Below the pieces are notes generated by a model that worked only from the letters and a program-made list of their open reading frames with translations, was not told where the DNA came from and ran no database searches. A stretch of DNA of 64,000 nucleotides from contig MPPA01000010.1 of NCBI GenBank assembly GCA_001896725.1, forward strand, positions 1 to 64,000. Direction: 5' to 3'. Below are positions 1,951 to 34,977 of the stretch, piece by piece (position 1 is the stretch's first letter; every line of letters starts with the position of its first letter). The translations under genes and the position numbers were made by a program. This DNA is from Methanococcoides sp. EBM-47. Its GTDB lineage: Archaea > Halobacteriota > Methanosarcinia > Methanosarcinales > Methanosarcinaceae.

Positions 1951-2092
1951 TTTGGCTCTGTAGAAACGATTGTAAAACCACTATAGTTCAGTTCAATTAC
2001 ATAGATACGGTCAATGTATAGGAAAGAACACATTCGAAAACATACAGAACATAGAAAAACACGTGATCAACGAGGTTTTCTACATAGCCAAA
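1951..2092. repeat. MITE-like repeat, copy B (best ends)
   Basis: The left end TTTGGCTCTGTAGAAAC and the right end GTTTTCTACATAGCCAAA are inverted repeats of about 17 bases with one or two mismatches. 142 bp, non-coding, internally similar to copies A and C. Its left end touches the ribosome-binding region of the transglutaminase-like gene, contributing the first two bases of AAGGTGA, so insertion must have replaced or displaced that gene's native promoter. I could not define target duplications with confidence. Confidence 0.75.
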
Positions 2093-3970: not shown

Positions 3971-4185
3971 TCTATCACTGACCAGCAATGTCATAAAGAA
4001 CTGGAAGACAGCAGTAAATTACAGGCTTTATTACTTATATTTTGAGTACGCTGACCACCGTCATTGACCCTTATTCTCAAAAACCGACAGAACTGGGAGA
4101 TGATGGCTCATAAATATATGAAAGATGAAACACGATCAGTGCATGAGCAGAACATATTGGATATATGAGCACGCACACTGGAAGT

Positions 4186-13649: not shown

Positions 13650-14642
<993 letters not shown>

Positions 14643-14761
14643 ACCAGTTTCATCTTTCATTTATTGTACATTTCATATAAGGATGGTAGTGCACCATTCT
14701 TAAAGTTCACATGGCATTTTGAGGGAAGTGCCATGTAGATAAAAATGGAAGAAGTGAGAAC

Positions 14762-17428: not shown

Positions 17429-17974
17429 TCATATCCTTTTTTCTGCGATACCGAGGGTATCCCGGATATATTTTGCAGGCACTCCTGCATATACACCAGA
17501 CATATCAAGTTTACCTTTAACTACAGCACCTGCAGCTATAATGCAATTGTCCCCTATCTCTGTGCCGGGCAATATAGTTGAATTGGCACCTATCCATACA
17601 CCATTACCAATAATCACATCCTCGCCAATGACAGTATGCCCATCTTCACCTACACGGTCCTTTTCCAGATGGGTACTTGTGGTCACCAGCACATTAAAAC
17701 CTATAGAACAATTGTCCCCGATAGATACACGACCAGAACAATCGAACTGCACACCACGGTTTATAAAACAATTCCTTCCTAGGGAAAGCTTCCTGAACGA
17801 ATTGATATAAATGTTCTTTCTGATGCGCGTATTGTTTCCAATGTTTGCCACAGGTCTGACAAATAAAGTTCTTATTATAGAGCATACGCTCATATCTGGA
17901 AATGAATTCGCCAGAAAAAGAAATGTGTATACATACATCTCTTCCAGGGTCTTGCGTATCCCAGATTTGATCAT
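17429..17974 (-). CDS. Hexapeptide-repeat O-acetyltransferase
   Basis: 181 aa. The C-terminal two thirds are left-handed beta-helix repeats ([LIV]Gxxxx), e.g. IGDNCSIG, IGEDVIIG, IGNGVWIG and IGDNCIIA. They end in the GAVVKGKLDMSGVYAGVPAKYIR segment common to maltose/galactoside acetyltransferases, quoted here only as the AGVPAKYIR end. The catalytic-type histidine in STHLEKD is present. Such enzymes acetylate sugars with acetyl-CoA, fitting modification of the locus glycan. The start ATG 17974 overlaps the flippase stop (ATGA), and I reject the upstream ATG at 17989. A hydrophobic stretch near residues 18-30 is unusual. Confidence 0.88.
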   Translation of the reverse strand: MIKSGIRKTLEEMYVYTFLFLANSFPDMSVCSIIRTLFVRPVANIGNNTRIRKNIYINSFRKLSLGRNCFINRGVQFDCSGRVSIGDNCSIGFNVLVTTSTHLEKDRVGEDGHTVIGEDVIIGNGVWIGANSTILPGTEIGDNCIIAAGAVVKGKLDMSGVYAGVPAKYIRDTLGIAEKRI

Positions 17975-19248
17975 AGTGCATGAAAACATGATACTTCCTT
18001 TGAATGATTGTATTTTCTATAAACGTATATGAATGAAACAACAAGCCCCAGCAGACAAGCCGTGCATGTGGCCATAGCAGCACCAACCACCCCATACAAG
18101 GGTATGAACAATTGATTGAGGACAATATCAAGTATAAGGACGAACAAGCTCATCAACATTGAAACACGTGGTTGTCCGCTTCCATTGATAACAGTAGTGA
18201 ACAAAGAAAACAAACCGAAGAAACCCATGCCTATTGTCAGCACACCCAGTGCAGTAGAACCTGCGGAATATTGATGCGAAAATAAGAAACTAAGAACTTG
18301 TCTTGAGAAGAGTACTATGAACAGAGTTGAAGGGACAAGAATGAGCATGGAATATTTGACAGACCTTATTATCTGCAGGGTTATCTGCGACCTGTCATTG
18401 TGTGCTGACATACTGGAAATGGCAGGGAACAGAGCCCCATAGATACCAGCAATAATATAAAAAGGTACTTTTGAGATGGTAGAAACAGCAGAGTAGATAC
18501 CCGCATCCACATCTGTCAGGTATGCCTTAACAAAGAAAAGATCAAAGCTCATTATCAGGTTCGTAGCCACTGAATAGAACACAATGGGAGTTGCAAAACC
18601 CAGGAGAGTTTTTGCAGATATCATGCAGTGTTCATTGTTCGATACACGCAATCTCTTATCAGCCGAATGAACAAAATAGAACCCAAGGAACAGAACAGCT
18701 ACCGAGGATATTATAAAACCGGTTATAGCTCCATAAAGTGCAAACGGGGTTAATGCAAGACCAAGTATCAGCACTACTTTAAAAGTAGAATAGAGAATGA
18801 CCATTAAGGACTGCTTACCATACTCCTTTAAACCATTGAAATAACCTACATACAGGGCTTGTAGTGCATATGCTGGAACAATGAGGGAAGAAAGTCTAAG
18901 ATATGGGGCCATGCCTGGATCATTCAGCATGATAGCTAACTGATCAGCAAGGGAATAATAAAGGATGAACAGGATCAAACTAAAGGAAAACTGTAATTTT
19001 TGTGCAGTTCTTTTAACATAAAGTTCATTCCCTTCTCCATGTGCAACATATTTTGAAACTGCCTGGGGAATGCCTGTTGAAAGGATCAGATTCACCATTG
19101 TCATAAGAGAGATGACAACTGCATATATTCCATAATCAGACGGTCCCAGGAATCTGCCTAATCCGATATGGGTAGCATATCCGGAAAGGACAAAAGAGAC
19201 CTGGGCTGCTATGAGATAGATAGTTCCATGCTTTAAACTCTGTTTCAT
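17971..19248 (-). CDS. Polysaccharide/oligosaccharide flippase (Wzx-like, MOP superfamily)
   Basis: 425 aa with about twelve to fourteen hydrophobic helices. The start IYLIAAQVSFVLSGYATHIGL followed by GRFLGPSDYGIYAVV (quoted in parts) is the Polysacc_synt family N-terminus. The family moves lipid-linked oligosaccharides from the inner to the outer leaflet. AAGGGTA precedes ATG 19248. It is translationally coupled to the acetyltransferase, and divergent from the GT-C gene at 19401. Its neighbours suggest that it exports the polyprenyl-linked glycan made by this locus; that is inference. Confidence 0.92.
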   Translation of the reverse strand: MKQSLKHGTIYLIAAQVSFVLSGYATHIGLGRFLGPSDYGIYAVVISLMTMVNLILSTGIPQAVSKYVAHGEGNELYVKRTAQKLQFSFSLILFILYYSLADQLAIMLNDPGMAPYLRLSSLIVPAYALQALYVGYFNGLKEYGKQSLMVILYSTFKVVLILGLALTPFALYGAITGFIISSVAVLFLGFYFVHSADKRLRVSNNEHCMISAKTLLGFATPIVFYSVATNLIMSFDLFFVKAYLTDVDAGIYSAVSTISKVPFYIIAGIYGALFPAISSMSAHNDRSQITLQIIRSVKYSMLILVPSTLFIVLFSRQVLSFLFSHQYSAGSTALGVLTIGMGFFGLFSLFTTVINGSGQPRVSMLMSLFVLILDIVLNQLFIPLYGVVGAAMATCTACLLGLVVSFIYVYRKYNHSKEVSCFHAL

Positions 19249-19400: not shown

Positions 19401-21008
19401 ATGAGATATGTGCCTGAAATCTTTGAAGATACATTTATAAAACTCACATTAGTATCAATGATAATACTATTGTTCAATATCCTCACAGATATGCATATGC
19501 TGAGAATGGAAGTGTTCATACCGGTCCTTCTGCTGCTTGGCATTCCTTATATGATTGGACCGGATGACCAAAAACAAAAAAGCAGAGTTCGTTCAGAGGT
19601 CTTATGGATATCACTTATATCTGTAGCTATACTATCTTTTTTTATTCGCTATTACCAATATTTTTTTATGAATATACCACCAGGATATGATCCTGGTCTG
19701 TACAAATATGGCTTTGATACATATATTACAAGTCTTCCGTATATACCAGAGAGGGATTTACCAGAATGGTTCAAAGAAATGTTCCCCCAGGGAATATTCT
19801 TATTAGGTGATGTGCTGTATGTGGTTGCTGGCCTTAGGTCCACTGAGACCATAATGATATTTATTCCTCTTGTATGCGGGCTTATGGTTTTTCCACTGTT
19901 CGCTGTGTCAGAGAATATCTCTGGTCAGAGAGGCGCGCTCATCTCTGTAACTATATATCTGCTATCAGCAACCCAATATATGCTTTTTGAATACTCATAC
20001 CTGAAGAACATAATTGGAATATTCCTTATATTGATCTCCATACTTCTTCTCCAAAAAGAAAAGTATGTGGTTGCAGCCGTGATCTATGCAGCTTTAAGCA
20101 TATACCATCGGCCACATTTTCTACTTATATCTATAGTCCTGCTGTTCTGGTTACTTGAAACAAGAGACAGGAAAATATATTTCACATTTATCATAGCTGC
20201 TGTACTGATGTTACCTTTCTGGGTACAGAGAATGGAACTGGGGATCTCTATGCTTAATGGTCTGGCAGACGTTGTTCTAAACAACTTAAGCGGTGAAGCG
20301 AGCATCCAGGGTGGAACCTTTTTAACATTTTCAAAATATACATATTTATCACTGCCCTATATAGCATTCGGGCTACTGGGGTTCATGAAAATGTCTTTGA
20401 ATAAAAGGAGAGAACAGGTTTTTTATTTCACATTGGTCACTGGCATAATGATCATACTCAAAATAGTTTTTTTCAGAAGGTATCTTGCAACCCTTGATAT
20501 CTTCCTGATCATATTGGCTGGAGGCTGTATCGAAACCATACTTACCAAAAAGAGAAAAGAGCTCCAAACCTATAGGAATCTCATCCTTTTACTAATAGTG
20601 ATCAATGGAAGTGCACTGGTATACGGACAAATGACAGAAAACAACAGGTTCATTTCTGATAGGGATCTTCGCGATATTGAGTGGATGGCCACCAACATCG
20701 GTCCAAACGGCCACATCCTTACGACCGTTTATGATGCACCCTGGGTTCTTGGATGGGGGAAGCACCCTGTGATAGCCCCAGGGCTTTTCCAATGGGATGT
20801 TTATACTCAAGCAGAATGGGCTGAGTTCCTCAGTACATCTGATCCACAGCTGACAGTACAATTTGTCTCGAAGTATAAGGATGAAATTTATATATATGAT
20901 TCGATAAATATGTTAGGTACCGAACTGGACAAATATTCCAGCAAGGAATTCCAATTAATAAGGGAAAACAAAGGTAAGATTTATAGATATGCCGGATCTG
21001 TTCGATGA
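19401..21008 (+). CDS. Large GT-C-like membrane protein
   Basis: 535 aa. About twelve hydrophobic helices are followed by a soluble tail (about 425-535). The first long extracytoplasmic loop contains PPGYDPGLYKYGFD, an acidic motif at the position where GT-C enzymes keep catalytic aspartates. The tail includes WVLGWGKHPVIAPG, resembling the C-terminal domains of archaeal dolichyl-phosphate-dependent transferases. Its partner and substrate are unknown. The last four bases overlap the start of the first cassette gene (ATGA), so its product probably acts with the exported proteins encoded downstream. Confidence 0.75.
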   Translation: MRYVPEIFEDTFIKLTLVSMIILLFNILTDMHMLRMEVFIPVLLLLGIPYMIGPDDQKQKSRVRSEVLWISLISVAILSFFIRYYQYFFMNIPPGYDPGLYKYGFDTYITSLPYIPERDLPEWFKEMFPQGIFLLGDVLYVVAGLRSTETIMIFIPLVCGLMVFPLFAVSENISGQRGALISVTIYLLSATQYMLFEYSYLKNIIGIFLILISILLLQKEKYVVAAVIYAALSIYHRPHFLLISIVLLFWLLETRDRKIYFTFIIAAVLMLPFWVQRMELGISMLNGLADVVLNNLSGEASIQGGTFLTFSKYTYLSLPYIAFGLLGFMKMSLNKRREQVFYFTLVTGIMIILKIVFFRRYLATLDIFLIILAGGCIETILTKKRKELQTYRNLILLLIVINGSALVYGQMTENNRFISDRDLRDIEWMATNIGPNGHILTTVYDAPWVLGWGKHPVIAPGLFQWDVYTQAEWAEFLSTSDPQLTVQFVSKYKDEIYIYDSINMLGTELDKYSSKEFQLIRENKGKIYRYAGSVR

Positions 21009-22453
21009 AATACACTAAATTACTGATGATACTACCTTTAATGTTGATAGCGTATGTGCTATATCTCAATATCGTTAGCTTTGAATTTTTAAAAGAGGAT
21101 GATAGATCATATTTTATAGATATCGGCGGACTGAATGATACCCAAGGCAGTGCAAAGCTGACAGGACCCATGGAAAGGGTGTCCGAAAGGATGCTATGTT
21201 CTGCAAATGGAACAAATGTGACATATCGCGAGCTTAATAGTAGTCTGATATATCTTCAGGTAACTAATCCCTCTATTAATGATCATTCCAGGGTCAAGAT
21301 CAAAGTCCGGTTCAAAGATAAGTTCCCTGTGGGGTACAATTTTAAAATAGGCTGCAGGAACAGCACCGAATGGAGCTATGAATGGAGAACTGTATACAAT
21401 CCAATTCATTCCAAAGTTGATTCCTCATTCTTTAAGATCAGTAATGATACCGAATATTTTGTTTATTCCACCATACCAGTAAATTCCACTAAAGTGGATG
21501 TGCATGAATTTTTCAGTAACCCGCCTGAAAATTCAGTTATTGCTACTGAAGGAAAAACTAACATAAATATATTCCCTGATCTAGTGGACTCTGAAAGAAA
21601 TAACGTTTTTACGGACAACACACTCAGAGGAGACCATATATTTTATACATTTGCAGATGATGGACCTTTTGAGCTCAGTCTTAAAAAGCAAGATCTTAAT
21701 CTCTACAATGGAGAAGATGAACTTAAAATAACGTTATATGATCAGAATGATATCGTCATTGCCAACTCATCGATACCAGACGACGGAGACATAACTAACA
21801 GTTCAGCAAAAGGACCTACACAGGCGACCACGATCAGTCTTCCCAATATGAAAAAAGGCGTGTATAAGATAGTACTTGAATCTTCAGATGACCTTACGAT
21901 CCGTGATATAAATATCACATCAGGAAGCTTTGTGGTGAAGGATACTGTCTTTGCTGTTTCGCCCTGTAGACTATACACGCGTCATCTGGAAGGAGGCTAT
22001 CTGGATCTGATCACATATTACCGGTCAGGGCTTCAGGATGTGAAGGTCCTGAATACTACAGTGCCCATCAAAGAGAAGAACATCAAGACCAGAGTATTGG
22101 TCCAGCCATCAACAAATATTTATGACATTGCTTGTCCAGCTGGGAACCTTAAAGTATCCTCATCGGCTTTTTTCTCATTCACCGAAGACTCTTATTTTGA
22201 ACCCCTCAGGTGTAAAGTGGTTCATTTGAACGATTACCCGGACCAGATAGAAAAAGAGAAAGTGGACTATATAGTTATTAGAGATCTTGGCGCTGAGCGT
22301 GATGCTGATGGATGGACCATTGCAAAGGCAATGTGGGACCTTGACGAACTTTATGTTGTTGAGAATACTCTGAACATTGTATTGAATGCCGAGCATCTTG
22401 TAAACAGGAACGAGAAGATCCCTGTTGACTGGGTTGAGATCAGTTTTGAATAA
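21005..22453 (+). CDS. Exported cassette protein, small type, copy 1 (482 aa)
   Basis: Family not recognised. An N-terminal signal-anchor helix (residues 5-25) precedes a soluble exported region. The first part (about 35-150) holds YFIDIGGLNDT, LTGPMERVSE and KIKVRFKD. The second part (about 205-430) is a conserved domain starting LRGDHIFYTF, with QDLNLYNGEDELKI, SSIPDDGD and DYIVIRDL. The same domain is in the middle of the large protein that follows and in both proteins of the duplicate cassette at 27011-31880. Many N-x-S/T sequons are present. It overlaps the GT-C gene (ATGA) and the next gene begins at its stop. A surface, glycan-associated role is inferred from context only. Confidence 0.75.
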   Translation: MKYTKLLMILPLMLIAYVLYLNIVSFEFLKEDDRSYFIDIGGLNDTQGSAKLTGPMERVSERMLCSANGTNVTYRELNSSLIYLQVTNPSINDHSRVKIKVRFKDKFPVGYNFKIGCRNSTEWSYEWRTVYNPIHSKVDSSFFKISNDTEYFVYSTIPVNSTKVDVHEFFSNPPENSVIATEGKTNINIFPDLVDSERNNVFTDNTLRGDHIFYTFADDGPFELSLKKQDLNLYNGEDELKITLYDQNDIVIANSSIPDDGDITNSSAKGPTQATTISLPNMKKGVYKIVLESSDDLTIRDINITSGSFVVKDTVFAVSPCRLYTRHLEGGYLDLITYYRSGLQDVKVLNTTVPIKEKNIKTRVLVQPSTNIYDIACPAGNLKVSSSAFFSFTEDSYFEPLRCKVVHLNDYPDQIEKEKVDYIVIRDLGAERDADGWTIAKAMWDLDELYVVENTLNIVLNAEHLVNRNEKIPVDWVEISFE

Positions 22454-22464
22454 TGGAGGCACAG

Positions 22465-25400
22465 ATGAGGAAAAAGATCATTATAATGATATTCATCCTG
22501 TGTGCACTTGCCGGAACAACAATGGCAGAAGAGATCAGAGGACCGGTATTTCCAGCCTACTTTAATGGATTCTCATACAATATAAGCGGCATTGATGCCC
22601 CTTCCCTGCTAAAAACCGGGGAGATCCTAAAGATCGATACATCGGATGGTTACAATATAGGACCAAAACATTTCAAATACGTGGGAATAAACAACGGCAA
22701 AACCGTTCCTTATCTTGGGTCAGAATATTTTATAGAAAGTATAGACGATGTGGCCATACTTAAACAAAAGATATGGGAAAAAGATGGGCTGACCATCATA
22801 GAAGGAAGACCTAAGGCTTTGAGCCGGGGATATTCAGTGCTTGTCAGTGATCACTCAAAAGAGAAGGATCAGATCAGTCTGTTATTAAGAAAAGATGGGG
22901 AGACCATAGACAAGCAGGTTATGGACCTAGGTTCTCAGGTCAATTTTACGACCGAATATGCAGGGAACAAAATTGTACTCTTTTCCGGATCATTTATGGG
23001 GTTCTTTGATAATGGGGATGCAAATAAAGCCTTCAGGATAAGTGATGCAAAACTATGGGACATGACAGTCTTGAAGGATGGATATTCGCCTGATGGAGTG
23101 TTCGTAATAAAGCTTAAAGATGTGGATGGTGACGGGGACATCGACATAGTAGGAGAGATCAGAGAAGGAAGAAGTCTTGACCTTAATAGCAATACTGTAA
23201 TACCTATATTTGGAAATAGCTTTTTCATAAAGACCGGTACGTTTTATGATAGTTTTTATGAAGGGTTGGAGAAGTATGATCTGCTTGCACAGAACAAACA
23301 GTATAAAATATTCGGAACTAGCGGGTATGAAGATATTGGAAATGTTAACAGTTTCCTTCAAAACCCCCCAGCATCAACAATTGCAGTTGGTCCAAGGGTA
23401 ACGATCAACACAACACCTTATTTTCAGGAAGATGCTCCGGAACTCAGAATGCAGTATCTGCTCCGGGGGGCACATTCCTTCTATACGTATATCCCAGCCC
23501 AGGGCATTACGCTTTCAATAGGGAAAAAGGATATGAACAGTTATGCCGGAGCAGATGAACTAAAAGTTAACATCTGTTCAATGGAAGGAAATGTGATCAC
23601 ATCAATGGAACTTGCTGATGACGGGGACACTGACAGCAGTAAAGTGATCGGGGCTGAGCAAACTGCATCGATCCGTATAGATGATGTTGAGCCTGGTAGC
23701 TACAGGATAGATTTGGTTGCGGGAAATGACCTATATATCAGTACATTGGATATATCAAGCGGTAAACTTGTTGCAAAGGATAGTGTTTACCTAATTTCTC
23801 CTGGTGAACTCCTCGCGACCTCAAAACATAGCATGGATATGTGCTTTAAAACATATCATAATGCAGGTCTTCAGACAATATCAATATTGGGACCTGATTT
23901 TAACCGGACAATCAATATAAATGCAACTGCCACATGTTTTTCTGTGAACCTGCCTTATTCAGATACGCCATATACTGTCCATATACCTAAAGGAAATATG
24001 ATAATAAATACAAATGGATATCTGGCTTTCTCTGAAGGGTCTTTGTTCGATCCTAATGCATGTGAAGTGCTCAACTTGCAGCGAGACGATGACTGGATAC
24101 AAAAAAATGATGTTGATTATATAGTAGTACCAGCATCAAAGAAACAAAAAGGATTTTATGTTTATAAAGAGGTCGCATCTGAATACAAAGAGGAGTCATC
24201 GCCCTCACCCTGGACCCTTGATCGTGTGGATACTTTCATGTCACCAGGAATGTTCTATTTCGACTTTGACAAGTACCACACATATGAATACATAAGCCTG
24301 GACACAACTGCAGGTCTGAACATAAGTGAGGATAACTTTTCCTACACATCGCTTCAGATAATTACCTTAAATGATCGGCAAGACATTACTGGCAGAGATA
24401 TAGCCCTTCTTGGAGAGCCCTATTGTGTTTTGTATATAGATGATGAAAAAGCCATTTTGGGTAAAAGGACCGCAAATGGAGTAACAACAACACTTTCTAA
24501 TCCAGATAGCTATAAACTGGGTGCTGGATATTCATTGATGCTCAACGGCATAGACATTAAAGGCGGGCAAGTTTTAATTTCACTTATGAAAGATGGGATC
24601 AAGGTACATGACCTCATCGGAAAAAAGGGGACTTACATTTACTACAATACTTCTATTGATGGCAAAGAAGTGACAATGTTATCATCACGGATCGATTCAT
24701 ATGTCAGGTCGGCACAACAGGATACTGTAAAGCTTACGGATCTTACTTTTAGAAATGTGAAAGACTACCTGGTCCTAGAAAATGGACAAAATATAGCAGA
24801 TGAATTTGTACTTTATCTGAAAGATGTGAACGATGATGACAATATCGACATTGAGATCAGGCTCCAAAAAGGAAGGTCATTATACTTGAAAGAGAATAGG
24901 AAAACTCCCATATTAGGAGATTTTGCAGCTTTTGAAATGGATACTAAACAAAAAGTAAAGCTCATACAGAATAATACCTTGCAAAGATCATCACAATGGA
25001 CATCAGGGCCGGGAACTGTGGAAGAACAGGAAGAACTTTTCATTTCATGGGCATACCCTTCCAGAAATGCCTCGGTCCAGTTCACAAAAATGGGCATTGA
25101 AAATTTGGAACTCACATTTGAAGATGAGATACAGTCTGCATATTTAGTTGTCCGGCAACTCAGTCCAGGTCCTTTGCACAATATAACTGATACATACGAA
25201 ACATACAGAATATATAATATATCGATCGTTCCTGACAACATCATTGAGGGTAAAATCCATTTTAAGGTCAGCAATAAATGGCTTGATGATCAGGAAATAG
25301 ACAGATCGTCCCTGGCTGTTTTGAGATATGATACTATAGGCTGGGAAAGATCACATGCGGAGATCTCTACAAAAAATAATGGCGATGTCAATATAGGATC

Positions 25401-26079
25401 AGAGATCAGGAACTCATCTACTATTGCAATAGTAGGGAAGAAAGTAAACAACACCTTCCAGGATACCGGAGCATCCAGGCAAGAACAATCTCTGGAAAAG
25501 AACATAGACAACAATAATTTACATATATCAGGTACTACAACTTTTGCTATTGTAACCATAGTATCATTAATGGCTATTACTTATATGATCTATAGGCAGA
25601 ATGACAAATCCAAAAGGAGAAAAGACGTGTTTGAACCTTCCAAGAGGTTACTAGAAGAGCACCGGCAAATATTATCTTTTAACCACAGTGTATTCTCAAC
25701 GCTCTTTGTAACAATGCTTTTGTTGTTCCTGATGGAGAATCTCTGGGTATATACTGTCTCAGCATATATTGATGTGAAGTATATAGTCTATATAACAATA
25801 ATTTCAGGCCTGATCGACATCCTGTTCTATAAAGAAGAGAATGAGAACGAACATAGGTTCATGAGCATGGACCTTATTCTGGCCCTAACGGTCGCTATTA
25901 TCGGGGTTTTTATGGTCGGTTATAAACTATCCCGTGCCACAAGCATCGTTAGTGAAGTATCCATCCTGTCAGGTATGCTTCTGCTAACAGTTGCGTTGAC
26001 ATTCTATGACCTTGATCTCAGGGATTTGATCGGACCGAACAGGAAAGAAAAAAAGAGAAATATGAGAAGGGATAAATGA
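22465..26079 (+). CDS. Giant S-layer-like surface protein, large type, copy 1 (1204 aa)
   Basis: A signal peptide (residues about 4-20, ending TMAEE) leads into an S-layer-like duplication domain (about 28-275). The conserved cassette domain follows (about 330-560, starting LLRGAHSFYTY), then a second S-layer-like domain (about 590-860, starting SPGMFYFDFD). A PGF-pre-PGF-like region (about 868-1000, QFTKMGIENLELTF) leads to one helix (about 1022-1045) and a C-terminal group of four helices. Both S-layer-like domains carry acidic loops of calcium-binding type, DVDGDGDID (about 218) and DVNDDDNID (about 786). ATG 22465 is chosen because GGAGG lies five bases upstream. The anchoring by several helices is unlike ordinary S-layer proteins. 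Confidence 0.8.
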   Translation: MRKKIIIMIFILCALAGTTMAEEIRGPVFPAYFNGFSYNISGIDAPSLLKTGEILKIDTSDGYNIGPKHFKYVGINNGKTVPYLGSEYFIESIDDVAILKQKIWEKDGLTIIEGRPKALSRGYSVLVSDHSKEKDQISLLLRKDGETIDKQVMDLGSQVNFTTEYAGNKIVLFSGSFMGFFDNGDANKAFRISDAKLWDMTVLKDGYSPDGVFVIKLKDVDGDGDIDIVGEIREGRSLDLNSNTVIPIFGNSFFIKTGTFYDSFYEGLEKYDLLAQNKQYKIFGTSGYEDIGNVNSFLQNPPASTIAVGPRVTINTTPYFQEDAPELRMQYLLRGAHSFYTYIPAQGITLSIGKKDMNSYAGADELKVNICSMEGNVITSMELADDGDTDSSKVIGAEQTASIRIDDVEPGSYRIDLVAGNDLYISTLDISSGKLVAKDSVYLISPGELLATSKHSMDMCFKTYHNAGLQTISILGPDFNRTININATATCFSVNLPYSDTPYTVHIPKGNMIINTNGYLAFSEGSLFDPNACEVLNLQRDDDWIQKNDVDYIVVPASKKQKGFYVYKEVASEYKEESSPSPWTLDRVDTFMSPGMFYFDFDKYHTYEYISLDTTAGLNISEDNFSYTSLQIITLNDRQDITGRDIALLGEPYCVLYIDDEKAILGKRTANGVTTTLSNPDSYKLGAGYSLMLNGIDIKGGQVLISLMKDGIKVHDLIGKKGTYIYYNTSIDGKEVTMLSSRIDSYVRSAQQDTVKLTDLTFRNVKDYLVLENGQNIADEFVLYLKDVNDDDNIDIEIRLQKGRSLYLKENRKTPILGDFAAFEMDTKQKVKLIQNNTLQRSSQWTSGPGTVEEQEELFISWAYPSRNASVQFTKMGIENLELTFEDEIQSAYLVVRQLSPGPLHNITDTYETYRIYNISIVPDNIIEGKIHFKVSNKWLDDQEIDRSSLAVLRYDTIGWERSHAEISTKNNGDVNIGSEIRNSSTIAIVGKKVNNTFQDTGASRQEQSLEKNIDNNNLHISGTTTFAIVTIVSLMAITYMIYRQNDKSKRRKDVFEPSKRLLEEHRQILSFNHSVFSTLFVTMLLLFLMENLWVYTVSAYIDVKYIVYITIISGLIDILFYKEENENEHRFMSMDLILALTVAIIGVFMVGYKLSRATSIVSEVSILSGMLLLTVALTFYDLDLRDLIGPNRKEKKRNMRRDK

Positions 26080-26363
26080 TGGTCCAAATGCTTATGGGTT
26101 CACTGTTCGTGTTCTTTTTACCAGGACTAACATGGACGTACGCGCTCTTTGAGAGCAAAGAAATAGATCTGTTAGAAAGGATCGCCCTTGCACTGGGACT
26201 TTCACTGACCATGGTACCTCTGAGCCTTTTCTATCTGCACAACCTTGCAGGGATGAGAATAGACCTTACGAATTCTGTGTACGTGGTCCTTTTGCTGATC
26301 GCAGTGGCATTATCCCTTATTGTTTTCAGGCGATACAGGAATATGAGCTTAAGGAAAAATTAA
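26076..26363 (+). CDS. Small DUF1616-like membrane protein
   Basis: 95 aa with three hydrophobic segments (about 4-20, 32-50, 68-86) and a short basic tail. The opening FFLPGLTWTYALF followed by IDLLERIALALGLSL is the pattern of the N-terminal membrane part of archaeal DUF1616 proteins, but the usual downstream part is missing, so it is a short version or a natural truncation. The start overlaps the stop of the large surface-protein gene (ATGATGG), which implies coupled translation. Function is unknown; a membrane partner of the surface protein is plausible. Confidence 0.7.
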   Translation: MMVQMLMGSLFVFFLPGLTWTYALFESKEIDLLERIALALGLSLTMVPLSLFYLHNLAGMRIDLTNSVYVVLLLIAVALSLIVFRRYRNMSLRKN

Positions 26364-26466
26364 GCTTTTAATTGTAGCATATTTTGTCACATAGCAATGT
26401 TATTGACTATGAGCATGTTGTTTTTAATTGTTTTAGCATTATATTTAAATAGTATAGTTCCAATCA

Positions 26467-26508
26467 TATATTTATAAGCAATTAATAATATAATTATACG
26501 AGGGGATA
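26467..26508 (+). promoter_or_regulatory. TATA box and ribosome site before the 161-aa exported protein
   Basis: TATTTATAAGC (26468-26478) is a good TATA box predicting a start near 26500. GAGGGGAT (26500-26507) is a good SD placed six bases before an in-frame CTG at 26514. No ATG, GTG or TTG occurs at the expected distance. Confidence 0.5.
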
Positions 26509-26513
26509 CGATT

Positions 26514-26999
26514 CTGAAGGGGATCCATAACAAACATAATCTGTATAGTTCTATCCTTACAGCTATACTCCTCTTGATAGTGCTATTGGTCAGTATGGCC
26601 GGTGCAGAGGAACTGAAGATAGAGGGACTTTCAGATACTTACCAGAAGGGGGACATCATCACGTTCACTTTGATAGTGGATGAAGGCCTTACATCTGAAA
26701 AGATGGAAGAATGGGTTTTCTCACTAAAAATAGATGGAGCTACAAAGGTTGATTTTCTGTTCGATGGAAAAGAGGACCACGATGGTCTTTCAGAAATAAC
26801 GGTCAGGATGAAGTCACCATATCATTATGGATATGGATCAGGGACAGCAGACCTATTTACAGATGATCAGAAAAAAGAGATTATCGTCAGCATTGATTCA
26901 TCCATGATGAACAGAGGTGATCACATTGCAACATTATGCATGTACAAAGAGGGAACATCTGAAATCCATGAGGTCTCAGCTAACGTAAAGATAATCTGA
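26514..26999 (+). CDS. Small exported protein, probable CTG start
   Basis: 161 aa if read from CTG 26514. A conventional TTG at 26574 would cut the signal peptide in half. With the upstream start the N-terminus is basic, followed by a hydrophobic core (about 14-32) and AGAEE, a normal signal peptide. The mature part (about 125 aa) looks like a single beta-sandwich: DTYQKGDIITFTLIVDEGL, VFSLKIDGA, HIATLCMYKEG. No family is recognised. It directly precedes the second copy of the surface cassette (27011), separated by about 10 bases, so it belongs to that operon and may be a secreted component of the same structure. Confidence 0.65.
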   Translation: MKGIHNKHNLYSSILTAILLLIVLLVSMAGAEELKIEGLSDTYQKGDIITFTLIVDEGLTSEKMEEWVFSLKIDGATKVDFLFDGKEDHDGLSEITVRMKSPYHYGYGSGTADLFTDDQKKEIIVSIDSSMMNRGDHIATLCMYKEGTSEIHEVSANVKII

Positions 27000-27010
27000 T
27001 GGAGCATTAT

Positions 27011-28477
27011 ATGAACTATAATAAAATCCATCTGCTGATCCCATTGATCCTGTTCTCTTACTTGTTAATAATGAACCTTCAATCCATAAATATGCAGGAG
27101 AAAGATGGTTCGTATCTGATAGATGTGGGATCCCGAAATGATATGCTAAGGGGTACCAGGCTCACTGGTCCAGAAGACAGGATATCAGAAGCTTTTAATG
27201 ATAGATTTGGAGATAAGAAGATAAATTTCAGGAACTTTACCAGCCGGTTCGTATATTTCCAGCTAGAGGAACCTGGGATAAGGAATGCTTCAACAGTAAG
27301 GGTCCAGATACGTTTTAAGGATGAGCTTGCAAAAGGATATGTGTTCAAAGTAGGTGCACATAGTGCTCCTCAATGGAACTATAAATGGAACCTGCTTTAC
27401 GATCCCTTTCAAAGACAGCTAGAAGAGGAATATGACACTATTTACACTGACAATAATATCTCTGTTTATTCCTTAAATGACAATGATCCCACATATTCCG
27501 ATCTAAAGGATTTTTTTTCAAAACTGGATGCTAAAAATACACTGGCCATCCATCCTTCGGTCAGTTTGTTCCCTGGCACTGACAAACTTCAGAAAGATGA
27601 GATCACAGCACTGAACACGACCGTTAACACAACACTAAGGGGAAGGCATACGTTCCTGACATTTGTCGATGGAAATGAGATCTCAGTGGATATTGAAAAA
27701 CAAGACCTTAACTGGTACAATGGGACCGATGATCTGAAAATGGAGATCGTTTCCGGTACAGGAGAAACGGTAGCTTCTCTGCTAATTCCTGATGATGGTG
27801 ATGCGACCGATCACCGTGGATTGGGAAAAACCCAGACATCCCATGTTAGAGCCACCGGGCTGGACGCGGGCACATACAAAATAATAGTGGACGCCAATGA
27901 TGATACATTGATCAAGAAATTACAGGTGTCAAGCAGTAAGTTGATCGCAGAGAACAATTTGTTCGTATACACCCCAACGAAGCTATTCACCTGGACCGAA
28001 GAAGAACGATCTGTAAGCCTTATGACCTTACACAAAGAAGGTCTTCAGGAAATAGAAATCAACAATGGGAACACAACCTCCAATGTAACGATCGATAGGA
28101 TCGCTGTCGCACAATATGCGAAAATAGTACCTTCATCAAACCTGCAGGGAATTAATGTTCCTGCAGGAGACCTGAAGATAGCATCACATATGTATTTTTC
28201 GTTTACAGAAGGCTCATATTTCGAACCAATGAAATGCAATGTCATACCTCTGGAGAATAACTTTGACTGGCTAAAGAAGAACAATGTTGACTATGTGATC
28301 ATGAATAACCGATCTGTAATATCTGAGAATGGATGGGTTATAGCTGAAACGGAGTGGAATATCGATGACCTTTATATAAGGAACAATGTGCTCGATTTCT
28401 CTACAAATATAGAACATCCGACTGATCCCTCCCAGATAGAGATTCCTGTGGACTGGATAAGAATAATATTAGAGTAG
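27011..28477 (+). CDS. Exported cassette protein, small type, copy 2 (488 aa)
   Basis: Paralogue of the product of 21005-22453 along its whole length. Shared elements are a signal-anchor helix (about 8-24), SYLIDVGSRND, LTGPEDRISE and VQIRFKDE. The cassette domain runs from about 208 (LRGRHTFLTF) to 435, with QDLNWYNGTDDLKM, LIPDDGD, FSFTEGSYFEP and NNVDYVIMN. The end NIEHPTDP...PVDWIRIILE matches PVDWVEISFE of copy 1. ATG 27011 has GGAG eight bases upstream; the ATG at 26999 overlaps the previous stop without an SD. The large paralogue follows 7 bases downstream, repeating the order of the first cassette. Confidence 0.75.
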   Translation: MNYNKIHLLIPLILFSYLLIMNLQSINMQEKDGSYLIDVGSRNDMLRGTRLTGPEDRISEAFNDRFGDKKINFRNFTSRFVYFQLEEPGIRNASTVRVQIRFKDELAKGYVFKVGAHSAPQWNYKWNLLYDPFQRQLEEEYDTIYTDNNISVYSLNDNDPTYSDLKDFFSKLDAKNTLAIHPSVSLFPGTDKLQKDEITALNTTVNTTLRGRHTFLTFVDGNEISVDIEKQDLNWYNGTDDLKMEIVSGTGETVASLLIPDDGDATDHRGLGKTQTSHVRATGLDAGTYKIIVDANDDTLIKKLQVSSSKLIAENNLFVYTPTKLFTWTEEERSVSLMTLHKEGLQEIEINNGNTTSNVTIDRIAVAQYAKIVPSSNLQGINVPAGDLKIASHMYFSFTEGSYFEPMKCNVIPLENNFDWLKKNNVDYVIMNNRSVISENGWVIAETEWNIDDLYIRNNVLDFSTNIEHPTDPSQIEIPVDWIRIILE

Positions 28478-28484
28478 TGGTCAC

Positions 28485-31400
28485 GTGTGTAAAAGATACT
28501 TATACTTTATTTTATTGATCGCGGTCCTTGTCCCTGCCACAGCTTCAGAGGTCAGTGGACCACTTTCTTATGTAAGGTATAATGAAAATGGGTACACAAT
28601 AACAGGTGCTGACGCACCTTCCCTATTGCTTGAAAATGAGATACTTTCAGTTGATATCTCTAACGGTACTACTATAGACACTGATCATTTTTATTATGCC
28701 GGGACCCGGGAAGGAGATAGGATCGATTTTCTGGGTAATACATACCTGATGGAGAGTGTCCATGATACTGCTGTTCTATCCACAGAGCTGTGGAAAGGAC
28801 AGGACATTAAAATAAAGGTCCATGAAACGATCGGCCTTTCAGACGGGTATGCTCTAAAATGTACAGGGATATCGAGTATAGAGGAAAAGGCCACTTTTGT
28901 GCTCATAAGTGACAAGGGTATCTTGGATACTTTTAGTATTAAAAAAAATAGTGTTTACAACTATTCACAGGCATGTGAAATAAAAAATTCAGTCCTATTC
29001 ACTTTTATTGCAGATGATCCCTTATATAAGAATGGGAACGAAGAGATCACGCTGACAGATATCTCCATAAGGAAAATAATGGTATTGAGCGATGGTCAAG
29101 ACCTATATGAGGATTATGTAATAAACCTAGAGGATATTGACTGGGATGGGAACGAAGACATCGTTGTGCGTCTCAAGCCGGGTCATACATTTACATTAGC
29201 TCCTTTATCAGAGATCCCGCTTCTTAATGGTTACATATGCCTGAGGACCGGGGTTGGCTATAATCATTTATTGGACAGGTTCGATGCTTCTGTTCCATTG
29301 ACCTCTGATGATGAATATAGAATATATTCATACAAACACAACAATGCAGCAGACCTTCAAGCAGTGTTGAACGATCCCTCCCCGGACCTTATTTTTTCCA
29401 TAGCTCCTTATGTGAAGTTCAATGGAATGGGGAAGATCACCACCAATACTTCTGCAGGAACAATAAGCTCTATGTCACTAAGAGGAAAACATGAGATATA
29501 CACATATGTTCACAATGATACCCTTAGCCTTTTTGTTTCAAAACATGACCTTAACTGGTATGAGGGAGAAGATGAACTAGATGTAATCGCATATTCTCCC
29601 TCTGGAAAAGTTGTTGGGTCCATCACTATACCTGACGATGGACGCAGTGCAGCAACCCGCATAGCAGGAGATGTTCAGACAGGTGTGCTGGAAGTATCTG
29701 GACTGCAGGACGGCATCTACCGTATAGAGCTCATATCTAACGATGATGTCATAATAGATGAACTGCGCAGTGCACAAGATAAGCTGGTCTTTGATGGGAA
29801 GATGTTCATTCTTTCACCCGGAGAACTGTATGTGGCATCCAATAAAAGGATCTCATTAAGATTTATGACCTTGCACGATGAAGGCCTGCAAGAGATAAAC
29901 GTAAAGGGAAGTGATCGAACCTATAGTACAAAGCTGGATACAAAGAACAAATGGGTAAATATCAGGTTACCTGCATCAGCTTCCCCATATAAGATAGAAC
30001 TGCCAAAGGGCGATATTAAGATCGAATCAGATGCATTTTTTGCATACAGTGATGAAGCCTTCCTCAGTAAAGAAAAGTTTACCATTGTCCCCTTGTACGA
30101 TACCATTAGCAAGGGTCAGGAACTAAAAGTGGATTATTTTATAGTTCCAATACAAAAAGAGCAAATTGTGTTCTATCCTTACAGGAACACGACCGATCAT
30201 ATATATTTTGATCTCTCGAATTATGATAATGAATTGAACACCTGGACATCACCGGGTATGTTTTATTTTGATGTTACTGGTAAAAGAAGCTGGGAGTTCC
30301 TGAAGATCGATCCCGGGGATGACAATGTACTGAGTGAGGACGAGATAGTATATGGAAGCCTGCAACATTATAATAACGATATTGAAAGCCCCTTGGATAG
30401 GACCATTGCATACCTTGGTGAACCCTACTGCGTACTGGAAGCAGATAATTCATCGATCGTCCTCTCCAGAATAGTGCTTGATAAGGATATAAGGGTCGGG
30501 TCCATCGAAAAAATAGAGCTGGGAGATGGGATGACCTTAGAAATACATACGTTAGACCCAGATACACATAAGGTCGGTTTCTCCCTTTATAGAGAAGGAA
30601 AGGCCCTGTCAGATCTTGAGGTCAGAGAGAATGGGACAACAACATATAAAGAAGTTATAATGGGTAACGAGGTCCCATTGGTGAACATTCGATGCAAGGA
30701 GATTGTACAAGGCATCAATGGCTCCAGTGCGCTGCTTAATATAAATATGATCAGTGGCCATGCCATTATAATAAGGGACCATGATACGTTCAGAGATGGA
30801 TCTAAAGTAGAGATCACCGATATCAATGGTGATGGTCTTCAGGATATAAAAGTAACACTTGAAGAGAACAGTGAGATCCTGCTTGAGAACGGCAGACATA
30901 CGCCCATTCTTAGGGGATATCTGACCTTGGAAACCGAGAACGATGATAAGATATTGATCAGCAAGAAAGATGTGCCCGATGAAGTAGATAATTTGAACAT
31001 TAAGGTGCAGTATGGCACCAGCCTCTCATTTACAGAGCCAATGAAAGAGATACCAATAACGATTGATAACACCACCTTTAATGGGTTAAATATATATTAT
31101 AACAAAGATGTTACTAACTTTTCTTTTTTATTAAAAATATTAAAAAAATTACCGAATTGTGAAGATAATATAGAAGGGGATATCCATAGTATATACGACC
31201 TAAGACTTTATCCAGATGACCCTGGTACTATATACATAGAATTCCAGATAGAAGAACAATGGTTCAATAACAGGGGACTGGGGCCTGAAGATGTTTACAT
31301 TGGTTACCTCAAAAACGGGAAATGGTCATATGTTGCTCCCAGTAAGATTGGAGAGCATGAAGAACACACCATGTTTAGTGTGAACTTAAAAGACCCTGGT

Positions 31401-31880
31401 ACATTCTGCATCCTGGGTCTGCCGAACACCTCAAAAGGATATAGCAAGGGACCTGAAACCATATCCTTCATACTCAGATCGATATCTGAGGAGAGCAATA
31501 CAGAAGATATGGACCAGGACACTGGAACTGTGGAAAAGTTGTCTTCAAAGGCTATCAGCTCTAATGTGCCAATTTATATAATACTATTTGTATCCATTGT
31601 CTGTATAGCTGTCCTTCTGACATATGCGAACAGGAGAAATTTTGCTGGAGATAGGACAGGAAAGATCCGGAACAGTGAAAAATACAGAAGCCTGATGAAA
31701 TCTAACCGTCGCTTATGCCTGACATTATTTGCTGTTTTTATGGTTCTGCTGATCATAGAAGAAATATGGAGAGGTTCAATAAGCCCTCATCTGAATATCA
31801 ATATAATGTTGATCTTCATAGTTATCACTTGTTTGATCGATTTGGTTGGAAGGAGATTCTGGAAGCAAGAGGGGCTTTGA
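28485..31880 (+). CDS. Giant S-layer-like surface protein, large type, copy 2 (1131 aa)
   Basis: Paralogue of 22465-26079. It has a signal peptide (about 3-20, ending TASE) and S-layer-like domain 1 (about 25-270) with acidic loop DIDWDGNED. The cassette domain (about 330-555, SLRGKHEIYTY) is followed by S-layer-like domain 2 (about 586-850, SPGMFYFDVTG) with DINGDGLQD. A PGF-pre-PGF-like region (about 850-985) and a helix (about 1028-1048) lead to only two further C-terminal helices, where copy 1 has four. The GTG start follows the upstream stop by 7 bases. It is convergent with a GT4 gene two bases away. Confidence 0.8.
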   Translation: MCKRYLYFILLIAVLVPATASEVSGPLSYVRYNENGYTITGADAPSLLLENEILSVDISNGTTIDTDHFYYAGTREGDRIDFLGNTYLMESVHDTAVLSTELWKGQDIKIKVHETIGLSDGYALKCTGISSIEEKATFVLISDKGILDTFSIKKNSVYNYSQACEIKNSVLFTFIADDPLYKNGNEEITLTDISIRKIMVLSDGQDLYEDYVINLEDIDWDGNEDIVVRLKPGHTFTLAPLSEIPLLNGYICLRTGVGYNHLLDRFDASVPLTSDDEYRIYSYKHNNAADLQAVLNDPSPDLIFSIAPYVKFNGMGKITTNTSAGTISSMSLRGKHEIYTYVHNDTLSLFVSKHDLNWYEGEDELDVIAYSPSGKVVGSITIPDDGRSAATRIAGDVQTGVLEVSGLQDGIYRIELISNDDVIIDELRSAQDKLVFDGKMFILSPGELYVASNKRISLRFMTLHDEGLQEINVKGSDRTYSTKLDTKNKWVNIRLPASASPYKIELPKGDIKIESDAFFAYSDEAFLSKEKFTIVPLYDTISKGQELKVDYFIVPIQKEQIVFYPYRNTTDHIYFDLSNYDNELNTWTSPGMFYFDVTGKRSWEFLKIDPGDDNVLSEDEIVYGSLQHYNNDIESPLDRTIAYLGEPYCVLEADNSSIVLSRIVLDKDIRVGSIEKIELGDGMTLEIHTLDPDTHKVGFSLYREGKALSDLEVRENGTTTYKEVIMGNEVPLVNIRCKEIVQGINGSSALLNINMISGHAIIIRDHDTFRDGSKVEITDINGDGLQDIKVTLEENSEILLENGRHTPILRGYLTLETENDDKILISKKDVPDEVDNLNIKVQYGTSLSFTEPMKEIPITIDNTTFNGLNIYYNKDVTNFSFLLKILKKLPNCEDNIEGDIHSIYDLRLYPDDPGTIYIEFQIEEQWFNNRGLGPEDVYIGYLKNGKWSYVAPSKIGEHEEHTMFSVNLKDPGTFCILGLPNTSKGYSKGPETISFILRSISEESNTEDMDQDTGTVEKLSSKAISSNVPIYIILFVSIVCIAVLLTYANRRNFAGDRTGKIRNSEKYRSLMKSNRRLCLTLFAVFMVLLIIEEIWRGSISPHLNINIMLIFIVITCLIDLVGRRFWKQEGL

Positions 31881-31882
31881 TA

Positions 31883-32998
31883 TCAAAGGGTTTCAAGAAC
31901 GTGCGTGTAAACTTGTGCTGTTTGTTTTGCACATCTTTCCCATGAGAATTGTGCGGCCCTGCATATACCCTTATGGATAAGGGAGGACCTGAGCACATCA
32001 TCCTGAAGCAATTGAAGCATGTAACTGGCCATTCTCTGATGGTCGTTTGGGTCTACGGTAATGCATGCATCACCTGCAACTTCAGGTAGGGAGGATACAT
32101 TAGATGTGATCACCGGGCATCCGCATGCCATAGCCTCTAAGACAGGAAGACCGAAACCCTCATAGAAGGAAGGGAATACGAACATCTTCGCAATGCAATA
32201 CAGCATGGCAAGATCTTCGTTCGGGACCCTTCCCAGGAATCGCACATCTTTTTCCAGGTCAAGGGAAGTTATCAGAGACTTGATATTTCGTCTGTCATGT
32301 GCATATTGTGGTTCCCCTGCCTTCAAAAGAACAAGATCCTTTCTTCCGGATTGTTTTTTCAACCTGTAGAATGCCTTAATGATACCTTCCACATTTTTCC
32401 GTGGCTGTTCTGAGCTAATATGCAGGATATATTCCTTATCTTTTTCAAGGCCATATTTTGACCATATAGAAGTAACATCCCTGTGGGGTCTGAACAGTTC
32501 AGGATCAATACCAAGATAGATGGTGGTCATGTTCTCTTTTGGGATTGCGTATTTACGCTGCAGGTCACTTGCAGTGGCATCAGAGTCAGTGATGATGTGG
32601 TCTGCATCTTTAAGGCCCTTATACATCAATTTGCCCATCATCAGATGTATCTTACTTGCCGGATACATCTCATGGATGATATCATGACAGGTTATTATTT
32701 TAGATGTTACCTTAAAAAAAGAGATGTTCTGATTGGTAAGATGATATATGTCGTATTTTGGGATGTGGCCTTGCATCCGGTAATAAAAAAATGGATTATT
32801 ATCAACAAATGGTATCTTTCTTGCGGCAGCTATGTCTTTTGATTTGGTAAGTTCACGCAGAGTGAACTCTCTGGTGTCAAAGAACACGTGATCTATATCC
32901 ACCTGATCTTTAATAGCTTCAAATAAGGAAAATGCGTAATTCCCTATACCAGTAAAGGGCTGGGCAGTGTTGATCATACCTATGGTCGTATAAATCAC
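31883..32998 (-). CDS. GT4-family glycosyltransferase
   Basis: 371 aa with GT-B fold. The acceptor loop reads QPFTGIGNYAFSL near the N-terminus, with LHISSEQPRKNVEGIIKAF at the domain junction. The nucleotide-sugar site FPSFYEGFGLPVLEAMACG contains the E-x7-E motif and is followed by SLPEVAGDAC. It is a cytosolic, retaining transferase using UDP-, GDP- or ADP-sugars, most similar in outline to the mannosyltransferase-like group. The start is a GTG inside AAGGTGAT; the next in-frame ATG (32977) would remove the first beta-strand. It is last of a four-gene minus-strand run from the GT2 gene. Confidence 0.92.
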   Translation of the reverse strand: MIYTTIGMINTAQPFTGIGNYAFSLFEAIKDQVDIDHVFFDTREFTLRELTKSKDIAAARKIPFVDNNPFFYYRMQGHIPKYDIYHLTNQNISFFKVTSKIITCHDIIHEMYPASKIHLMMGKLMYKGLKDADHIITDSDATASDLQRKYAIPKENMTTIYLGIDPELFRPHRDVTSIWSKYGLEKDKEYILHISSEQPRKNVEGIIKAFYRLKKQSGRKDLVLLKAGEPQYAHDRRNIKSLITSLDLEKDVRFLGRVPNEDLAMLYCIAKMFVFPSFYEGFGLPVLEAMACGCPVITSNVSSLPEVAGDACITVDPNDHQRMASYMLQLLQDDVLRSSLIHKGICRAAQFSWERCAKQTAQVYTHVLETL

Positions 32999-33009
32999 CT
33001 TCTAAACGG

Positions 33010-34977
33010 TCACATGAACATATTAGAACTATCAGTGACCTTATACAATTGCAGTTCAATGTCCTTGGTCACTATATTTGCAGGCCTTTTCATAAGCCTG
33101 CGAGCTATGGAATATTCCATATCATAGACATCCTTTTCCTTATGAGGATAATGGTTCAGGTCCACTGTAACCTCCAGCTGTTCCAAAGTGATAGTCTGAG
33201 CATAAAAAAGTTCTAGTTCTACAGGATTGAAATATTTATCCAGAGATGTGGCTTCATTTGTAAGTATATATATGGTATCAAAACTTGAAACATTAAGATC
33301 ATCTTTGAGATCTTTAACCGAGTCAGCATCCCACCAGAGAGCTGGCTTTGAGTACACAAAGAAAAGAGGATCTGCCATTTTGTATGGACCTGTCGCATAC
33401 CTGTCCACAAGTACCAGGTCATTGGGACCAACACGATCAGCAATGTTCCCTACATTTGCTATCATCCCATCATTTTCAGAAAAGAACAAAATGGGATAGG
33501 CGGTATAAATATTCAGTATCAGGACCAGGGACATGAGGCACATGTACACGTTTTTCTTTTTTGACAGATCATATATCAGAACAGACATAAGTAAAAAGGC
33601 TCCTGGTATGGTTGTAGCTACATACCTCCTGAGGAACCAGGGCTGGTCCAAGGTGATGAAGGGAGAAAGAAGGTAAAGGAAGCCAGGAAGCATAAAGAAG
33701 ATCACAAGAAGTTGTTTTTTTGAACTGATGTCCCTTTGGGTCACAGATATTATGAAGACCAAGAAAATAGAGACCATGGGTAACTGAAGGTTATATTCAG
33801 ATAATGCCATGTACACGAACTCAGGAAAGTGATATCTTATAGCTGTTCTGTTAATCGCTGGCGTTCCTGCTGGAGATGGGACAATATCACCTGAAAAATG
33901 GTTCAGGACAGCATCTATGACCCCAAGGTATCTTGTCTGCATAAAAAAGTAATAATAAAGTAGCAATACTGAAATTAAAAAAAATATGGACCAAAAGATT
34001 ACACGGAAGTATCTGTTCAGGAAATATGATATATCTTTTTTTCTGATATTAGAAAAATGATCTAAGCCGATAGTATTCGTCATCCTCTGGTTCGCTGGCC
34101 CAAAGCGCTCAGATGACAGGTCGTATAATAAAAACAGAAAATAGAAACTAAAGAGTATCAAACCTTCGATACGTACAAAGGGTAGCATTCCAAAAGCCAG
34201 CATCGATGAAACATAGTAGATATTCCGTTTGTGCTGCAGCAGATACATGCAGCATAATACGCCAAACCAGAAAAGGGCCATGAAGAATATCTCGGTCACG
34301 GTCTGTCTTGAGAACCAGATCAAAGGATATGTAGCTGAAAAAGTCAGAACTGCACCCAGACCAGCATATGGATTCCTTATTTCTTTTCCGATCAGATAGA
34401 TACTTACAAGCCCTATGAACAAAGGAAGAAGATTGCTGAATTGTATACCTTGTATACCGAAAAGACTGTAATAGATCGCTACCCAGGAAATATACCCGAA
34501 ATGGAACTGGGAAATAAGTTTTCCATCGTTTGCCATGATATAATTGTTCGGGGAGAGATAATGTGGTATGAGTTCATTCACAGCAGAGTCTATGAACAAT
34601 GTATGGTGCTCTGACAGATAAATAGCATTGGTTGAATAGATGCCTGGGTCCCGGCCTCCATAGAACGTATCATGGAAGTACAGAGAAGTAAAGATGGAAA
34701 AGAACAAAATGAATAAAAGTGCGATGATATTCTGTTTGGACATACCACTATGAGCACGGTATGTGTGAAAATAAAAAACAAAGACCGTTGTTATCAATAG
34801 TAGTGCCACTAAGAGTATAGGCTTGTAAAAAAGGGAGAGCATGGCCAGCAAATTAGCGGTCCATGCGATACATACGAACCACAGTGAAAGGACAACGAAC
34901 TGATATTCAAATCTGGAAGTGATGATTTCATCCTTTAGCTGCAGTATAAAGCACCTCCATATAAAGGCGAGAGACAT
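33010..34977 (-). CDS. Large GT-C (GT39-like) membrane glycosyltransferase
   Basis: About 655 aa with ten or more hydrophobic helices. The first long extracytoplasmic loop has FYGGRDPGIYSTNA, an RDPG acidic motif shared with archaeal and bacterial GT-C enzymes. There is also a loop with SRQTVTE, and a soluble C-terminal domain (about 500-655) with LVLVDRYATGPY. The start is uncertain. ATG 34977 would overlap the preceding GT4 gene by 50 bases and lacks an SD, whereas GGAGGTG at 34954-34960 points to an in-frame CTG at 34944. Probable role: transferring sugars from polyprenyl carriers outside the membrane. Confidence 0.82.
   Translation of the reverse strand: MSLAFIWRCFILQLKDEIITSRFEYQFVVLSLWFVCIAWTANLLAMLSLFYKPILLVALLLITTVFVFYFHTYRAHSGMSKQNIIALLFILFFSIFTSLYFHDTFYGGRDPGIYSTNAIYLSEHHTLFIDSAVNELIPHYLSPNNYIMANDGKLISQFHFGYISWVAIYYSLFGIQGIQFSNLLPLFIGLVSIYLIGKEIRNPYAGLGAVLTFSATYPLIWFSRQTVTEIFFMALFWFGVLCCMYLLQHKRNIYYVSSMLAFGMLPFVRIEGLILFSFYFLFLLYDLSSERFGPANQRMTNTIGLDHFSNIRKKDISYFLNRYFRVIFWSIFFLISVLLLYYYFFMQTRYLGVIDAVLNHFSGDIVPSPAGTPAINRTAIRYHFPEFVYMALSEYNLQLPMVSIFLVFIISVTQRDISSKKQLLVIFFMLPGFLYLLSPFITLDQPWFLRRYVATTIPGAFLLMSVLIYDLSKKKNVYMCLMSLVLILNIYTAYPILFFSENDGMIANVGNIADRVGPNDLVLVDRYATGPYKMADPLFFVYSKPALWWDADSVKDLKDDLNVSSFDTIYILTNEATSLDKYFNPVELELFYAQTITLEQLEVTVDLNHYPHKEKDVYDMEYSIARRLMKRPANIVTKDIELQLYKVTDSSNMFM

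Follow-up and report, generated by a model that had tools for sequence, protein, structure and literature searches.

Within the window, that is, the whole 64,000-nucleotide stretch of DNA analyzed here, a small and a large exported protein are encoded twice in the same order, as the first-pass annotation had claimed. A check of the open reading frames gave the order S1 (482 aa), L1 (1208 aa, counted from the first ATG), S2 (492 aa), and L2 (1131 aa), where S1 and S2 denote the small and L1 and L2 the large proteins, and S1 with L1 and S2 with L2 constitute copy 1 and copy 2, respectively:

13659-14642, + strand: GDP-mannose 4,6-dehydratase (PF16363/TIGR01472, over cut-off)
14762-15865, + strand: UDP-GlcNAc 2-epimerase-like gene (PF02350)
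15847-17421, + strand: PMT_2-type GT-C, in the variable block (PF13231, E 1e-12)
17971-19248, - strand: polysaccharide flippase, Polysacc_synt_3/MATE-like (PF13440, E 2e-26)
19401-21008, + strand: module GT-C, STT3-like fold, motif IPPGYDPGLYKY with D97 (profile A5 against AglB 3waj, E 7e-5)
21005-22453, + strand: small protein S1, N-terminal membrane helix and beta domains (model pLDDT 90.4)
21494-22339, + strand: shared domain of S1 (HMM, residues 164-445)
22453-26079, + strand: L1, with S-layer domain, shared domain, S-layer domain, PGF-pre-PGF, and c7 (PF07752 and TIGR04213, over cut-off)
23308-24192, + strand: shared domain of L1 (HMM, residues 286-580)
25648-26022, + strand: c7 membrane module at the L1 C-terminus (c7 HMM 104 bits, residues 1066-1190; profile A6, E 5e-40)
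26076-26363, + strand: c4, 3-TM, DUF1616-like, 95 aa (PF07760 37.3 bits, cut-off 31.6; c4 HMM 126 bits)
26574-26999, + strand: exported 141-aa protein of family c12, directly 5' of S2 (homologues at the equivalent place in L029 and L043)
26999-28477, + strand: small protein S2 (33% identical to S1, E 1e-106)
27494-28360, + strand: shared domain of S2 (HMM, residues 166-454)
28485-31880, + strand: L2, architecture as L1 but with only the first half of c7 (PF07752 54.9 bits; c7 HMM 40.5 bits)
29322-30212, + strand: shared domain of L2 (HMM, residues 280-576)
31883-36163, - strand: GT4, PMT_2-like GT-C, and GT4 for glycan building, in the variable block (Pfam)
36205-37146, - strand: GT2, conserved right flank (nearest NCBIfam model AglJ, below its cut-off)

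The two sugar genes (13659-15865) form a conserved flank that was also found in the genomes G005, G001, and G003, and they supply nucleotide sugars. The reading frames of GT-C and S1, of S1 and L1, and of L1 and c4 overlap by 1 to 4 bases (the start of c4 overlaps the stop of L1), which suggests that these four genes lie on one transcript. Since only copy 1 is accompanied by a GT-C and c4, and L2 carries only half of c7, the two copies are not equivalent. The GT-C at 19401-21008 as a member of the unit, the 95-aa DUF1616-like gene, and the exported 141-aa ORF had not appeared in the first-pass annotation. The TTG start of the latter (26540-26600) cuts the signal peptide while the frame runs on upstream, and in the homologue from L029 the N-terminus is longer and has an ATG; the start codon is unclear or lost. 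Next to the locus (37316-41714) lie a 671-aa membrane protein and a type II/IV secretion ATPase, the latter kept at that place across the genus.

Architecture of the small and large proteins

All four proteins share one domain of approximately 285 residues, as had been noticed in the first reading of the DNA. In an all-versus-all BLASTP comparison, every small-large pair matched over this domain with E < 1e-30 (approximately 1e-33 to 1e-44, 26-33% identity), well outside the range of chance matches, and 35 columns are invariant across the four proteins. The motifs reported earlier, namely LRG-H, K/H-D-(L/M)N-Y-G-D-(D/E)L, DDG, and VDY, are present in all four, but as originally written they were slightly loose, since PDDG is replaced by ADDG in L1, and the LRG motif reads LRGKHEI in L2. 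The claim that the domain belongs to no named family held up: searches of the window proteins against Pfam and NCBIfam, of all 26 small homologues against Pfam, and of the PDB by sequence returned no match to it, and assignment to a known family was consequently rejected.

The model of S1 (pLDDT 90.4) comprises a single N-terminal helix (residues 2-28), predicted to remain uncleaved, followed almost entirely by strands, in agreement with the earlier proposal that the small protein is an anchored partner. No carbohydrate-binding module (CBM) family matched the small protein, and a fold search yielded no specific relative, only generic jelly rolls and viral capsids with a best TM of 0.17-0.22. 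A viral origin was rejected, as no relative was found among viral contigs. Two short Nanobdellota homologues, L070_8 (207 aa) and L071_9 (240 aa), align with the two ends of the small-protein model alone (approximately residues 4-124 and 422-477) and lack the shared domain, yet they sit inside complete modules. The small protein is therefore an anchored beta domain that the shared domain splits as an insert; in the large protein, this insert lies between the S-layer domains.

The paired S-layer domains described previously in the large proteins were corroborated with PF07752 (64.4 bits for L1 and 54.9 bits for L2; cut-off 30). The two copies are homologous to each other (hhalign 99.8%, E 6e-29), the shared domain lies between them, and the S-layer profile matches the solved S-layer protein MA0829 (3u2g, E 4e-12). 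With NCBIfam TIGR01567, the large proteins scored 56 and 61 bits, under the cut-off of 121.9. The S-layer domains are followed by a PGF-pre-PGF domain (39.1 bits in L1, cut-off 28; 25 bits and thus below cut-off in L2) and then by the polytopic tail, which is real, as had been proposed, and homologous to the separate c7 gene. The large proteins have no PGF-CTERM sorting tail; their C-terminus is c7 instead.

Methanosarcina S-layer proteins possess a signal peptide, tandem DUF1608 domains, and C-terminal membrane anchoring (PMC3361143). The large proteins resemble them in all three features (PF07752/DUF1608), but differ in the approximately 285-residue domain between the tandem copies and in the polytopic c7, which replaces the single anchor helix. 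This S-layer::domain::S-layer::c7 architecture was found in seven large proteins. The large protein is accordingly a lineage-specific fusion of an S-layer ectodomain and a second copy of the shared domain onto the module subunit c7.

Recurrence and fusions of the four-gene unit

Profiles of the shared domain and the small protein were searched against 186 Methanosarcinales genomes, a 345-genome phylum sample, and samples around distant hits, and four family profiles were built from the loci found and mapped back onto those loci. Because found family members joined the seeds, E-values obtained with these own profiles are partly circular, and many of the genomes searched are incomplete MAGs. The recurring unit consists of the STT3-fold GT-C, the small protein, c7 (3-4 TM), and c4 (3 TM, DUF1616-like), and it occurs in Methanosarcinales, Nanobdellota, Aenigmatarchaeota, and Dehalococcoidia. 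Contiguous sets were found in L035, L045, L046, L048, L070-L073, L075, and L078, and near sets in L034 (with the GT-C on another contig of its genome), L049, and L074. The module extends to bacteria, since a large SRP RNA of bacterial type lies on the contig of L078.

Among the 186 Methanosarcinales genomes, the small protein co-occurs with c7 in 11 of 12 cases (Fisher 5e-15 with strict c7 calls, 3e-13 with all, kinship being ignored) and with the GT-C in 7 of 12 (Fisher 2e-7, likewise ignoring kinship). Incomplete sets were also seen: the small protein of L039 has no module gene in its vicinity, L081 contains GT-C, c7, and c4 without a small protein, and L082, L083, L085, and L086 show a GT-C with neither small protein nor c7 in the stretch read, which ends at contig ends in the last three.

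In L031-L033 and the window, the large protein occupies the place expected for c7 and ends in c7 itself; c7 forms a separate gene in L043, L045, and others. L043 marks the fusion boundary, since c7 comes immediately after the GT-C there as a gene of its own (54% identity to the tail of L1), with c4 next and with neither S1 nor the S-layer part. The L043 sequence (1-4168) is binned as Methanofastidiosum methylothiophilum, while its genes are near those of Methanomethylovorans (GT-C 63% identical to that of the window), and the assignment is probably a binning error. The possibility that c7 is a repeat or relative of c4 was rejected (hhalign 0.4%), and because Pfam gave no consistent match, so was its assignment to known flippases or to GtrA-like proteins. 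In G070, a short contig (L084, 604-4534) holds several incomplete stretches resembling c7, which are perhaps decayed copies. As for c4, it matches the N-terminal membrane part of DUF1616 (PF07760) over the cut-off of 31.6 (37.3 bits in the window, 69.2 bits in L045), but only over the first ~120 of 307 positions, and it measures only ~100-150 aa compared with ~300 aa. A Haloferax DUF1616 protein is itself N-glycosylated (PMC8241124).

Further fusions join c7 to the GT-C (L078_10), c7 to c4 (L073_6), and a Polysacc_synt_3 flippase, a relative of that in the window, to the module GT-C (L049_10). Weaker matches (26-37 bits) combine half of c7 with another PMT_2-type GT-C in three Methanoperedens genomes (L036_12, L037_2, and L038_7). 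Including the fusion, 9 of 22 loci have a Polysacc_synt_3 flippase no more than 6 kb from the GT-C; none of this family was found near the Nanobdellota loci. Given the fusions and the co-occurrence, a membrane complex is the simplest reading, which supports the link between a membrane or surface complex and the glycan machinery suggested in the first-pass annotation.

It is also conceivable that unrelated envelope genes merely travel together in variable surface-glycan islands without forming a complex. The block is indeed a variable island: in the M. hollandica-like genome G005 a block of ~17 kb is missing, so that the GT2 right flank adjoins the flippase at a distance of 384 bases; no PMT_2-type GT-C is present at the place corresponding to 15847-17421, and no GT-C, c7, or small gene occurs elsewhere in that genome. 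The GT4, PMT_2-like GT-C, and GT4 set is kept beside L2 in L029 and L030. However, the same gene set in distant phyla, repeated and different fusions, and overlapping genes argue against such hitch-hiking, which we regard as unlikely.

The main rival to the module reading takes the small and large proteins for nothing more than glycosylated coat proteins, i.e., a heteromeric surface glycoprotein or alternative S-layer that is a substrate of the neighboring glycosyltransferases. The S-layer domains over cut-off, the 9-15 N-glycosylation sequons per small or large protein, and the adjoining glycosyltransferases and flippase are all consistent with this explanation. The small-large pair does recur in three Methanoperedens loci, the outcome on which the first-pass annotation had staked its proposal; as a system, however, the pair did not stand, since in other groups (Nanobdellota, Aenigmatarchaeota, Dehalococcoidia, and some Methanosarcinales) the small protein sits beside GT-C, c7, and c4 without any S-layer protein. 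Because the c7 onto which the large protein is fused occurs elsewhere in fusions with GT-C enzymes, both proteins are more likely parts of a glycosyltransferase complex than substrates only, although a substrate role is conceivable. With the S-layer protein missing in most lineages, we consider the coat-protein explanation possible but rather doubtful.

The module GT-C and oligosaccharyltransferases

The catalytic subunits of oligosaccharyltransferases (OSTs) carry an acidic pair in the second loop, a TIxE/SVSE glutamate, and a WWDYG motif. The model of the module GT-C (pTM 0.86) matched, in places 1-18 of the PDB fold search, exclusively OST catalytic subunits (TMq 0.57-0.65), followed by ArnT, DPY19, and ALG12, and profile A5 matched AglB (3waj, E 7e-5) over the first loop. 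D97 in this loop is present in all 15 rows that cover it and is aligned with the first-loop Asp of AglB. In contrast, the 16 GT-C members tested gave no hit to the Pfam STT3 family PF02516 at E 0.01, and the members lack a conserved acidic pair in the second loop, a glutamate of the TIxE/SVSE kind, and WWDYG; GTF and APGLF motifs are found where the OST motifs would be expected. Other conserved residues are R83, H236, R360, D366, W448, and W473. Compared with STT3, AglB, and PglB, the module GT-C thus shares the GT-C fold and the first-loop Asp, but is shorter, without the large C-terminal soluble domain, and is accompanied by c7, c4, and the small protein. On the model, it is OST-like in fold, which does not establish it as an OST.

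A multi-subunit OST, in which c7, c4, and the small protein would be accessory subunits and the GT-C would attach a complete oligosaccharide from its lipid carrier to Asn residues of proteins, would agree with the nearest folds, the weak AglB profile match, and the flippase fusion. The absence of the OST motifs speaks against it, and 17 of the 18 module or related genomes possess an STT3/AglB gene at another place, so that the module was rejected as the only OST of the cell. In our view such an enzyme is improbable.

GT-C enzymes with an extracytoplasmic beta domain, a lipid-linked donor, and a flippase offer another comparison. In GT136, the CBM binds the acceptor glycan but is not essential for activity (PMC11127046). 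The module resembles GT136, EmbC, and AftD in these respects (PMC11127046), whereas its beta domain is a separate anchored protein, accompanied by two extra membrane proteins and the S-layer fusion; the likeness to their CBMs is one without demonstrated sequence relation.

A proposed extracytoplasmic glycosyltransferase module

We favor, with evenly balanced confidence, the reading of the locus as a four-part extracytoplasmic glycosyltransferase module composed of the GT-C, the anchored beta-rich small protein, c7, and c4. Gene arrangement, domain architecture, recurrence, and fusions come directly from the sequences, and the GT-C fold and small-protein anchoring from the models; from these we infer complex formation, substrates, catalysis, and glycan binding. 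The neighboring glycosyltransferases would build a lipid-linked glycan, which the Polysacc_synt_3 flippase would turn outward. The GT-C would then transfer the glycan, with D97 in the first outer loop as the probable catalytic base, while c7 and c4 would hold the complex in the membrane. By analogy with the GT-C enzymes whose CBM binds the acceptor, the small protein would have a presentation role, and the shared domains, as putative carbohydrate-binding modules, may position the acceptor or the growing glycan. In Methanomethylovorans and some Methanoperedens, where the c7 subunit carries the S-layer ectodomain and a second domain copy, the fusion would place the transfer at the S-layer, with the lattice serving either as acceptor or as docking scaffold.

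Prokaryotic oligosaccharyltransferases are generally regarded as single-subunit enzymes. Likewise, one survey found no prokaryotic relatives of accessory OST subunits (PMC4973528). What is new here is a previously unnamed membrane sugar-transfer module of several archaeal groups and some bacteria, one part of which is fused to an S-layer protein in a methanogen and its methane-oxidising relatives; the literature searched contained no account of such a module. Our wider proposal, a multi-subunit STT3-fold extracytoplasmic glycosyltransferase complex of archaea and Dehalococcoidia, undescribed in that literature, with one membrane subunit incorporated into an S-layer protein, giving the coat a glycosylation machine of its own, is put forward tentatively. 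If true, an STT3-fold enzyme with three companion proteins, variously fused, would constitute a testable multi-part prokaryotic enzyme. The S-layer fusion would physically link coat assembly and glycosylation and may connect the coat with the machinery for its decoration, and two unnamed families, the shared domain and c7, would gain a context.

The history of the shared domain differs between lineages. In a tree of 31 domains, the small and large domains of Methanoperedens form one group (100/100), whereas in Methanomethylovorans S1 groups with S2 (91/94) and L1 with L2 (95/88). Identity between these two Methanoperedens domains amounts to 58-64% at the protein level and 69-72% at the DNA level, while no similarity was found between the small and large proteins outside the domain. 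This suggests that in Methanoperedens the domain moved from the small to the large protein more than once, or that the copies were homogenised, either of which may keep one putative binding property. The two pairs in Methanomethylovorans probably go back to an old duplication of the pair as one block; the second copy is missing the GT-C, c4, and half of c7, through later loss or because it never contained them. In the Methanoperedens genome of L038, a truncated small copy of 104 aa (430-744) lies upstream of the full-length copy (1960-3363) and is likely a duplication remnant.
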